Origin: Thiotrichaceae bacterium | Lineage (GTDB): Bacteria; Pseudomonadota; Gammaproteobacteria; Thiotrichales; Thiotrichaceae | Assembly (NCBI GenBank): GCA_015486375.1 | Contig: WFRR01000099.1 | Span: forward strand, 1 to 56,559 | DNA: 56,559 bases | Reading direction: 5' to 3' | In this document: piece after piece, positions 32,426 to 35,318 of the stretch | Numbering within the stretch: the stretch's first letter is position 1 | Layout of the letters: every line of letters starts with the position of its first letter | The notes under the pieces: model-generated | The model's database searches: none | What the model saw: the letters and a program-made list of their open reading frames with translations, nothing else | What the model was told of the DNA's origin: nothing | Program-made: the position numbers and the translations under genes

Positions 32426-32464
32426 CCCTTTATCGTTATTCTTCGCACCTTTATCAAATTAACT

Positions 32465-32508
32465 TATAATGTTCATTAAATAAGTTAATATTACTGCCTA
32501 TAATGTTC
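32465..32508 (+). promoter_or_regulatory. two tandem TATAAT-type -10 boxes upstream of the fibre locus
   Basis: TATAATGTTC occurs twice, at 32465-32474 and 32499-32508, 34 bp apart. Each includes a perfect -10 consensus. The second lies 46 bp before the start codon at 32550. No strong -35 box was found, so an activator may be needed. The call is by pattern only. Confidence 0.4.
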
Positions 32509-32549: not shown

Positions 32550-33329
32550 ATGAAAAATTTTCATAAAATTGTTGCAACGACACTCTCAACTCTTTGTTTA
32601 TCCAGTGCTGCTTTTGCAGATAGCTGGCAAATCATACAAGGTGTTGATGTCTCTAATGTAGGTGGCGATACAACGTTACGTCAAACCAATTCAACTGATA
32701 ATAATTCGGTGCAAAGTCTCAATACCATTAATCTTGATCAAACGGATGGCACAATTAATACAGGTTCGAATCAAACTGCTAAAACAGGTTCAAATACATT
32801 AAGTTTGGTACAAGATAATGGTACATCGCAATCCAAGCAATCTGTGAATACCGCAACCGCTAAAACTATTAATGATTTAACCCAAGTCCTTGAAGGTTCT
32901 GGGGGAGCGATTCAACTTAACCAAAGCAATACAGGTTCTGCCAATACACAAGCTATTAATGCGGTAAAGGCAGATAAAATCATACGACTAAAACAAAAAA
33001 TTGTGGCACCTAATACAGAACTAAAAAGTAATCAGGATAATGTAGAAAAAAGCATTCAAGCGGGTAATTTAATTACCATTGGTAGTTCTTTATCAACATC
33101 TGGCGTTGAGCAAAATATTGCTGTTAAAAGTGCGGGATTCACACAAAACTCAAGCAGTCAGACCTTACAAGCAGGTAATGCTTTATTAATGGGTAATGGC
33201 AGTATGGCAACAGGGGGCGGTATTACTCAAAAATTCAGCACCAATGGTGGTGAATTAAACCTAATTCAAAATCAAGCCGCAGGTTCACATCAGTCTGCAA
33301 ATTATACAGGTATTAGTACAAGCAACTAA
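32550..33329 (+). CDS. curlin-like repeat secreted protein (first paralogue)
   Basis: A 259-residue protein with a signal peptide ending AFA before DSWQIIQGV. The mature part consists of about six imperfect 38-residue repeats. The core pattern is L-x-Q, seven or eight residues, Q-A/S-x-N, then a hydrophobic residue and L-x-Q. Examples are LRQTNSTDNNSVQSLN, LNQSNTGSANTQAINAV, TQNSSSQTLQAGNALLMG and LIQNQAAGSHQSANY. It is rich in Gln, Asn, Ser, Thr and Gly and has no Cys in the mature part. This looks like a β-solenoid or amyloid subunit like CsgA/CsgB or Caulobacter HfaD. The AHFA-type gene context and CsgG-like partner support secretion. Family homology is inferred. Confidence 0.6.
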   Translation: MKNFHKIVATTLSTLCLSSAAFADSWQIIQGVDVSNVGGDTTLRQTNSTDNNSVQSLNTINLDQTDGTINTGSNQTAKTGSNTLSLVQDNGTSQSKQSVNTATAKTINDLTQVLEGSGGAIQLNQSNTGSANTQAINAVKADKIIRLKQKIVAPNTELKSNQDNVEKSIQAGNLITIGSSLSTSGVEQNIAVKSAGFTQNSSSQTLQAGNALLMGNGSMATGGGITQKFSTNGGELNLIQNQAAGSHQSANYTGISTSN

Positions 33330-33376
33330 TTCATAAGCGATAAAGCCTTACTTCAATACACTATAGAGAATACGTT

Positions 33377-33745
33377 ATGCCACTTTTATTTCGCTTGATG
33401 TCGGTATTAGTCATGAGTTTACCTTTGCAAGCTATTGCAAATGATCAACAACTTTATCCTACTTTTCCCAGCTTCCCTACAAGTTATGCACAACTGGATG
33501 CAGGGACGTTAATCAGTGAGGCAAGAGTGGATTTTTCGGCAGTGCCAAAGATCGAAAAAACGGATGGATTTCAAGTCATTTCACCTGATGGTGATGTGTT
33601 CTATGTTGATAATATTGATCAACCTAAATGTGCATTTTATGCCAGTTATGTTGCCAATGATGATGGAGATATAAGCGGTGCAGGTAGCTTGGAGGTCTTC
33701 AGTAATGTTTATATTGAGGAAGTTAACTTTGAGAATTGCCAGTAA
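33377..33745 (+). CDS. small secreted protein of the fibre locus
   Basis: A 122-residue protein with a signal peptide (about residues 1-21, cut near AIAND). The mature part has a Pro-rich beginning (LYPTFPSFPTSY) and two Cys (PKCAFYASY and NFENCQ at the C-terminus) that could form a disulfide. I see no clear domain. It overlaps the CsgG-like gene by 41 nt. In layout it occupies the place of HfaA in holdfast-anchor loci, but no sequence similarity is obvious. It may be an accessory or nucleator subunit. Confidence 0.6.
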   Translation: MPLLFRLMSVLVMSLPLQAIANDQQLYPTFPSFPTSYAQLDAGTLISEARVDFSAVPKIEKTDGFQVISPDGDVFYVDNIDQPKCAFYASYVANDDGDISGAGSLEVFSNVYIEEVNFENCQ

Positions 33746-34673
33746 TACCCAAACGATAAGCCTTTGCTTAGTCATATTTTTATCATTGCTAAGTTTATCG
33801 GCCTGTACTTCATCCACCTCATCAGTTGAGCCCATGCTGGCTGCGACCCCCGTATCCAGTCGTAGCAATATTAGTTCTGCTGTTGAGTGTATGGGACAGC
33901 GTTTAGCCGATTCTGATGCTTCCCGTGCCTATGTCTTTTTAGTACGGGACTTACCTGATGGCACAATTAAAACAGGCCCGTATCAAAATGGCCCGATGTC
34001 AGATGCAGGACGCACACAGTTTATTAATACACTGAGTGAAAACATCCATCCTCATCTTGGCGTTGTCACGGATAAATATCCTTCTATTTTTCAACCTTTG
34101 TCCAAAGAGGATGTGGGTCTAAATCGTTTTGGCTTACCGTCTTCTCGCAATGTTAAATCATTTATATCCATCTTTAGAGGCATTATTGATACTTCCCGAC
34201 AATATAAAAAAATGCCGCCCGCTCGTAGCATTATTCCTTTAGTGGTTGATGGCTCATTCACGCGTATGGATGGCGATAATTTTGATCAAGCAGGCAATGC
34301 TCATAACACAGGTAATCGAGGCAACAATAATCAATATGGAATTACAGGACAGATTGATTTCGGCAAAACCGTTTCAAGTCGCGCCATTACCTTAGCGATT
34401 AATTTGATTGATCCTCGTACGAATCTAGTTGTGGGCGCACGTTCTTTTGATTTGCAGTTTAGTCGGAGTAATGACAAAAAACGCTTTCGGATTGCACTCG
34501 GTGATGGTTTTTACGGTTTCTCTCGCAATGAAGTCACGGTTGAAGGACTGCACACCGCACAGCAAACTTTATTAGATGCCGCTGTTATGTGGGTCTTAGA
34601 TAAAGCTTATGGTCGTAGTATCGACTTCTCTACCTGCCTTTCACCTCAACAACTTGATATTGTAGGTAAATAA
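33705..34673 (+). CDS. CsgG-like outer-membrane secretion lipoprotein
   Basis: From ATG 33705 it has 322 residues. GGAGG at 33691-33695 supports this start over ATG 33678. A hydrophobic leader ends in the lipobox LSAC. The second half follows the layout of CsgG: a VDGSFTRMDGDNFDQAG segment and ITLAINLIDPRTNLVVGARS, with the strand-turn-strand YGFSRNEVTVEGLH, then a C-terminal helix (LLDAAVMWVLDKAYG). CsgG forms a nonameric channel that exports curli subunits. The gene lies between a small secreted gene and a repeat protein gene, as hfaB does in hfaA-hfaB-hfaD. Its N-terminal half is divergent. Confidence 0.66.
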   Translation: MFILRKLTLRIASNTQTISLCLVIFLSLLSLSACTSSTSSVEPMLAATPVSSRSNISSAVECMGQRLADSDASRAYVFLVRDLPDGTIKTGPYQNGPMSDAGRTQFINTLSENIHPHLGVVTDKYPSIFQPLSKEDVGLNRFGLPSSRNVKSFISIFRGIIDTSRQYKKMPPARSIIPLVVDGSFTRMDGDNFDQAGNAHNTGNRGNNNQYGITGQIDFGKTVSSRAITLAINLIDPRTNLVVGARSFDLQFSRSNDKKRFRIALGDGFYGFSRNEVTVEGLHTAQQTLLDAAVMWVLDKAYGRSIDFSTCLSPQQLDIVGK

Positions 34674-34676
34674 AGT

Positions 34677-35318
34677 ATGACATCTTCTCAAAATCAAATG
34701 ACCATGCTGATTGCCATACTGACAATTAGTTTCTTACTTAACTCTGTTTTAAGCCCCTCTATCACCTATGCTGATAGCTGGGATATTACCCAAATCGTTA
34801 ATATTGACGATACAATGCGCTTAGAACAATCGAATAGTAATGACAGTACACAAGCGATTAATCATATTAATAACAATGATATTGCCAGCACACGCCAAAG
34901 GGTCGATTTAAATAATAGCTCCGTCACACTCAAGCAAATTGATAGTGATCAAAGTCAGCAAGCTTTAAATCTACTCAGTAGTAAACAGGTTCAAGACGCA
35001 ATACAATCCAGTACGGGCATCCGCGAATTGGATTTACACCAAAATGGTGGCAATGCTAATATGCAAGCGGTCAATATTTTAGAGAGTCAAGGTACTTCAG
35101 GTTCACAACAACTCTCTGCCGATGTGATTAATTTTAGTCAGATATCAGGCAAAGATAATATTCAAGCAGGCAATATTGCTATAGGTACACAAGGGGATTT
35201 AACACAGAACTTTACGGCTAAACAAGTCAATATTCGGATTGATAATGCCGATGGAAATACTCCTGTACAAGCGGCTAACTATATCAATCGTTCCCCTTTA
35301 AATACACTTAGCTTTTAA
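34677..35318 (+). CDS. curlin-like repeat secreted protein (second paralogue)
   Basis: A 213-residue protein with a signal peptide, then DSWDITQIVNIDDTMRLEQ. It has about five imperfect 35-residue repeats of the same type as the first paralogue: LEQSNSNDSTQAINHI, LKQIDSDQSQQALNLL, LHQNGGNANMQAVNI, FSQISGKDNIQAGNIA and the end VQAANYIN. The shared ADSW start and repeat pattern indicate a gene duplication. It begins 3 bp after the CsgG-like stop, so it is surely cotranscribed. It is Gln/Asn/Ser-rich and likely forms a β-helix or fibre. Confidence 0.62.
   Translation: MTSSQNQMTMLIAILTISFLLNSVLSPSITYADSWDITQIVNIDDTMRLEQSNSNDSTQAINHINNNDIASTRQRVDLNNSSVTLKQIDSDQSQQALNLLSSKQVQDAIQSSTGIRELDLHQNGGNANMQAVNILESQGTSGSQQLSADVINFSQISGKDNIQAGNIAIGTQGDLTQNFTAKQVNIRIDNADGNTPVQAANYINRSPLNTLSF

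Follow-up and report, generated by a model that had tools for sequence, protein, structure and literature searches.

The stretch of DNA analysed here, 56,559 nucleotides from a Thiotrichaceae bacterium (the window), contains four adjoining genes that probably encode a compact system for export across the outer membrane, of the same type as curli and Hfa. It would work in their manner but, by the tests run, belongs to neither. Two repeat proteins, a small secreted protein and a lipoprotein with a predicted CsgG-like fold make up the locus, and what is new is that the channel, partner and subunit families are separate from the named ones.

Gene organization and expression

Four open reading frames were confirmed on the forward strand, with the repeat-protein genes flanking the genes for the small secreted protein and the lipoprotein (Table 1). 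The first two genes are separated by 47 bp, the second and third overlap, and the third and fourth are 3 bp apart, a spacing which suggests that the four genes form one transcript. The promoter-like site upstream of them is weak, because the region does not contain more of these sites than shuffled sequence does. Initially the lipoprotein had been read from an ATG at 33705; its start is more probably the TTG at 33729, which is preceded by GAGG at 33716-33719 within the end of the small gene, since most of the relatives compared have a recognisable purine-rich GAGG-like site, followed by a TTG that overlaps the small gene at its end. Translational coupling of the small gene and the lipoprotein gene is probable from this arrangement.

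Table 1 Features of the locus, with positions in the window
Feature	Position	Strand	Description
Promoter-like site TTCGCA-17-TATAAT	32442..32470	+	10/12 matches; upstream of the first repeat gene
Repeat protein 1	32550..33329	+	259 aa; signal peptide; relatives only at loci of the same type
Small secreted protein	33377..33745	+	122 aa; no named family
GAGG and TTG start of the lipoprotein	33716..33731	+	inside the end of the small gene
Lipoprotein	33729..34673	+	lipobox LSAC; Cys codon 33804-33806; proposed outer-membrane export channel
Repeat protein 2	34677..35318	+	213 aa; signal peptide; paralogue of repeat protein 1

The upstream flank encodes a YecA-like protein and an Xaa-Pro aminopeptidase, and the convergent gene downstream encodes a type II secretion N protein. 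The base composition is not foreign (39.2% versus 38.3%). A sister genome keeps zapA-yecA-pepP and has no such locus after pepP; it does not offer a clean empty site, because the gene that follows pepP there is not gspN.

Repeat proteins

As the initial annotation had proposed, the two repeat proteins are paralogous (30% identity, E=3e-7 by BLASTP of the mature parts), whereas the Gln/Asn richness ascribed to them turned out to be only moderate, with a Q+N content of 21-23%. Repeat protein 1 contains six QAxN-type motifs and repeat protein 2 five, about 37 residues apart, against averages of 1.2 and 0.9 in residue shuffles (p = 0.001 and 0.0005); over 19 proteins, 128 such motifs were observed versus 19 expected. 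The units number six of ~37-42 residues in the first protein and five of ~35 in the second, following the outline L-x-L-x-Q ... Q-A-x-N ... Q, and the mature part of neither protein contains a cysteine. The composition and periodicity are consistent with a polymer or a beta-solenoid.

The mature N-terminus reads DSWxIxQ in repeat protein 1 and DSWDITQ in repeat protein 2. In most relatives, D[SG]W..TQ or a close variant follows the signal peptide in both paralogues, so that the conserved form can be written as D-S/G-W-x-I/V-T-Q; the position of this element recalls the N-terminal secretion signal of CsgA. In the strict sense, however, the term 'curlin-like' that was first applied to these proteins does not hold, since neither they nor the 11 members of their family compared matched the curlin repeat PF07012, and the counts of Q.G..N units in the two proteins were 0 and 0, versus 6 in the genuine curlin protein of the same genome. 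Q.G..N units do occur in the repeats of some relatives.

A lipoprotein with a predicted CsgG fold

At the sequence level, the lipoprotein matched 0 Pfam families at E<=1, CsgG (PF03783) being among those not matched, and PF03783 was matched by 0/8 members of its family. One relative, of a variant type with a C-terminal extension, matched PG_binding_1 in Pfam (E=0.005). The NCBIfam model of HfaB (NF037935) was matched at E<=1 neither by the lipoprotein nor by 11 members of its family, no other NCBIfam model gave them a meaningful match, and no solved structure matched the lipoprotein in sequence. 'CsgG-like', the name given to it from the DNA alone, is thus not returned by either the CsgG or the HfaB sequence model at E<=1.

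The name stands by the predicted structure, which is of moderate model confidence (mean pLDDT 65.6, pTM 0.62, core >90). CsgG was the best solved match in Foldseek (E 5.2e-6, probability 1.00), and in VIA the CsgG entries filled the first six rows (Z 9.7-10.9, with the next non-CsgG row at Z 8.7), led by 4uv3 with Z 10.9 over 203 residues; the alignments to CsgG have a high rmsd of 6.4-8.7 A. A match of the lipoprotein to a different family had been named at the outset as something that would refute the initial annotation, and the predicted fold gave no such refutation. Two long strand pairs are present in the model, and their tips are variable and poorly predicted; these two low-confidence tips occupy the positions of the CsgG membrane hairpins. 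The putative membrane hairpins have a pLDDT <50, and the first one is very polar.

Two extra cysteines lie ~28 residues past the lipid-bearing cysteine and past the last long helix. The pair is invariant in 11/11 lipoprotein relatives and occurs also in all six proteins of the HfaB set, in an HfaB relative from Thiotrichaceae and in two CsgG-like proteins of divergent sequence, while it is absent from 11/11 curli CsgG, which places the lipoprotein nearer to HfaB than to CsgG by a signature that was derived in this analysis and is not a published criterion. The HfaB reference proteins came from Alphaproteobacteria and were labelled by NCBIfam, whose model NF037935 matched bona fide HfaB at E=8e-110 and the Thiotrichaceae relative at E=3.5e-58.

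The lipoprotein profile is collinear with HfaB-type proteins over 220 columns, and column shuffles scored as high in 2/150 cases, versus 11/150 for CsgG. With signal peptides trimmed, the profile comparison with HfaB, taken by itself, yields a weak match (probability 5.8%), the values obtained before trimming having been inflated by the signal peptides. When the family was combined with the two divergent CsgG-like lipoproteins of loci L044 and L045, the probability to HfaB was 79-89%, partly because these two link the family to HfaB. There are also weak N-terminal matches of the lipoprotein to the proteins of L044-L046, which may reflect the signal peptide. Because the HfaB profile is weak after trimming, the placement of the lipoprotein rests on its fold, its cysteine signature and its linkage. 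We conclude that it has a predicted CsgG fold and an HfaB-like signature and is a member of neither named sequence family.

The unmatched CsgG and HfaB models, the low profile probability, the overall pLDDT, the poorly predicted hairpins and the high rmsd all count against reading the protein as an export channel, and so does the fact that domains of LptE, TolB, PelC and PqiC share the core arrangement, with Z near 7 in VIA. It could instead be a periplasmic or inner-leaflet accessory of the LptE/PelC/PqiC kind that forms no pore, in which case the repeat proteins would be periplasmic or exported otherwise; Z scores of 6.4-8.7 to many such domains and the nature of the putative hairpins, one of them very polar, would fit this. 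We regard such a role as improbable, given that the CsgG rows not only come first but also align over the longest spans, that the gene is strictly linked to those of Gln/Asn repeat proteins, that the cysteine signature is that of HfaB, itself of the CsgG family, and that the two long strand pairs end in variable tips.

The small secreted protein

The small protein has the conserved pattern TxGYxVxxPDGxxFxVDNxxxPxCAFY...SNVYIxEVNFxxCQ, in which the glycine, proline and cysteine positions are invariant in the protein and its relatives. It belongs to no family named in Pfam or NCBIfam, and its AlphaFold model is poor (pLDDT 48.5). By eye, the order of motifs is similar to that of CsgF (P-F-P, then LL-A); no homology to CsgF was detectable on the mature parts (hhalign probability 0.3, 38/200 shuffles as high), and an earlier apparent CsgF signal came from the signal peptides. 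The protein is not HfaA-like either (hhalign probability 0.1, NF037934 not matched). From its linkage and the probable coupled translation, we infer that the small protein may be a partner of the channel or a chaperone of the subunits.

Relationship to curli

With curli, the locus shares an outer-membrane lipoprotein of CsgG fold (here predicted), repeat subunits that are rich in Gln/Asn and conserved at the mature N-terminus, and a gene for a small secreted protein immediately before that of the channel, as csgF lies before csgG. It differs in that its repeats are ~37 residues long with QAxN, whereas those of curlin are ~22 with Q.G..N (X6QXGX2NX10), and in that its lipoprotein has the HfaB-type cysteine pair, which CsgG lacks. 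CsgF (PF10614) was found nowhere in the own genome, and CsgE and CsgD were not found among the locus proteins or the immediate neighbours scanned. The original remark that csgE, csgF and csgD are missing therefore extends to the whole genome for CsgF and can be widened to any other named curli gene within the locus, while for csgE and csgD it applies to the locus and its immediate neighbours. A short gene list is not in itself new, since curli systems without csgC, csgD and csgE, and sometimes without csgF, have been described (PMC3521004).

Such reduced csg systems, together with the CsgG-like fold of the lipoprotein and the Q.G..N units in the repeats of some relatives, are what an ordinary but very divergent curli locus could point to. 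That the locus is one is nevertheless highly improbable, as PF07012, PF03783 and PF10614 are all unmatched in it and the repeat length is wrong for curlin, and the same genome has genuine members of both families, a curlin-repeat protein and a CsgG, at other places; another genome (G046) holds CsgF and CsgG alongside this type of locus. In the own genome, the genuine Pfam CsgG (L001/L018) is located near an end of contig C141, beside protein-kinase-like genes, and the curlin-repeat protein (L047) is located separately on contig C172.

Distribution and linkage

A first scan of contigs with a single protein as query gave no match. Over 63 genomes of the order, the module was found at 10 loci in eight genomes, and the carriers include Thiothrix fructosivorans, Leucothrix pacifica, a Cocleimonas MAG and an uncultured Thiotrichaceae MAG. 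Identity to the lipoprotein is 68% for its counterpart in one Thiothrix genome and 46-51% for those in four other genomes of the same family, and two genomes of another gammaproteobacterial family have the identical gene order (L042, L043). None of the three protein families was found apart from the others within the 63 genomes: the small-protein matches adjoin a lipoprotein gene in 10/10 cases, every lipoprotein locus has a small gene beside it, and all repeat-protein matches fall within such loci. A lack of co-location in other genomes had been set beforehand as the second finding that would refute the initial annotation, and the genes proved to be strictly linked. The distribution is patchy, with several near-complete Thiothrix genomes lacking the locus, and the neighbouring genes vary between the loci inspected. 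Pfam CsgG was detected in none of the Thiothrix and Leucothrix genomes that carry the locus, so no other such channel was seen for these subunits.

Several loci depart from the arrangement in the window. A second, smaller copy of the module is present in the own genome (L016, contig C11, 3515-5220), encoding a 130-aa repeat protein that lacks the DSW start, a 98-aa small protein and a 297-aa lipoprotein (35% identical to that of the window). In two Thiothrix genomes, G015 and G095, a variant locus keeps the small protein and the lipoprotein beside a repeat protein of another type, as would suit a channel pair that is fixed and a cargo that can be exchanged. The variant loci L017 (4414-6426) and L040 (5382-7026), in two Thiothrix genomes, encode a lipoprotein with a C-terminal extension, and the repeat protein encoded convergently beside it has another motif (VVGxQV, NVNG). 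At L014 (2821-3540) and L041 (8169-8828) there is a fifth gene for a predicted lipoprotein, similar to the repeat proteins in its C-terminal part and a candidate for anchoring the polymer in the membrane. In the Thiothrix genome with L041 (5120-6591), the lipoprotein is broken into two frames beside a shortened small gene, so this copy may be damaged or misassembled.

Relationship to Hfa and the holdfast question

The likeness to Hfa of Caulobacterales comprises a repeat or curlin-like protein and a CsgG-superfamily lipoprotein in a single row of genes that continues with a further repeat protein, the position of a small secreted protein immediately before the channel, and the two extra cysteines of HfaB. 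On the other hand, the locus has one more repeat gene in front and a different repeat motif, and the protein at the position of hfaA belongs to a separate, unnamed family. None of the four window proteins matched the HfaA (NF037934), HfaB (NF037935) or HfaD (NF037936) models at E<=1, and the HfaA and HfaD models were likewise unmatched by 11 relatives of the repeat proteins. The gene order had initially been compared with hfaA-hfaB-hfaD; as membership of that locus, the comparison is not borne out by these curated NCBIfam models.

Caulobacter HfaB is a critical part of the HfaABD complex and is required for surface HfaA and HfaD (PMC6707917). Rosettes of gonidia and polar fimbriae have been described in Thiothrix, with no genes assigned to them in those papers (PMC3368414, PMC8570282); a link between them and this locus is speculation. 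Holdfast anchoring by the locus would be plausible. In its strict form, the exported repeat proteins would fasten an adhesive polysaccharide at the pole to the outer membrane, like Caulobacter HfaA and HfaD. The resemblance in gene order (repeat, small protein, channel, repeat), the HfaB-like cysteine signature, the rosettes of Thiothrix and the critical place of HfaB in Caulobacter would all suit this function, which is nevertheless unlikely. All three Hfa models are unmatched; the locus, present in 8/63 genomes and missing from several near-complete Thiothrix genomes, is patchy, which is odd for a genus-wide trait; its neighbours in the window include no polysaccharide genes, and its flanks vary between the loci inspected; and other Thiotrichaceae have a much closer HfaB relative (NF037935 E=3.5e-58, L046).

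This HfaB relative is encoded in several Cocleimonas-type genomes (L046, 223-2512; L105-L111), below the curated cut-off of the model, with a secreted protein of 129 aa on one side and a repeat protein of 285 aa on the other; these are possibly true hfa-like loci in Gammaproteobacteria. Very divergent CsgG-like lipoproteins of ~455 aa (PF03783 E=0.015 and 0.12) are found at L044 (3762-6450) and L045 (3834-6539), with small secreted and repeat-like proteins as neighbours, and apparently represent yet another version of such a locus. Both groups come from the same bacterial family as the window and share with its locus the cysteine pair and a CsgG-superfamily lipoprotein placed between a small secreted and a repeat protein, but their lipoproteins are distant and their repeat types and small proteins are other than those described here.

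Proposed mechanism

The analysis establishes the genes, their strict linkage, the repeats, the lipobox and the CsgG-like predicted fold. For a curli/Hfa-type export system, we infer pore formation, export, polymerisation and adhesion along the following lines. All four proteins would be exported by Sec. The lipoprotein would be lipidated, inserted and oligomerised in the outer membrane as a channel of the HfaB/CsgG superfamily, while the repeat proteins would stay unfolded in the periplasm, with the conserved mature N-terminus DSWxITQ as their recognition element; the repeat protein of the second locus in the same genome, which has no DSW motif, speaks against this part. After passing the channel, the repeat proteins may fold at the surface into a Gln/Asn-laddered beta-solenoid or an amyloid-like polymer, in which repeat protein 1 could be the main component and repeat protein 2 a minor or anchoring subunit. 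The small protein with its two cysteines, whose translation is probably coupled to that of the channel, would be the obligate partner of the latter, acting as gate, chaperone or nucleation site and thus as a functional stand-in for CsgE, CsgF or HfaA. The most likely role of the product would be cell-surface or cell-cell adhesion in attached, rosette-forming bacteria.

Implications

On balance, we lean towards viewing the locus as representing an unnamed lineage of fibre export by the CsgG superfamily, the third after curli and Hfa, in which the channel family, the obligate small partner and the repeat subunits are all its own, occurring in attached, rosette-forming sulfur bacteria and in at least one other gammaproteobacterial family, and with variant loci in which the repeat type is exchanged and the channel and partner are kept. 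Because current annotation models miss these genes, systems of this kind are probably more numerous than counted. If the proposal is true, fibre export through channels of the CsgG type can use widely differing subunits and needs no more than one small accessory protein, which would help to work out which parts of curli export are essential. The adhesion of Thiothrix and Leucothrix gonidia to each other and to surfaces is an old topic of microbiology that has seen little genetics, and the locus, being the only CsgG-superfamily locus detected in several of these genomes, provides a concrete and testable gene set for it.
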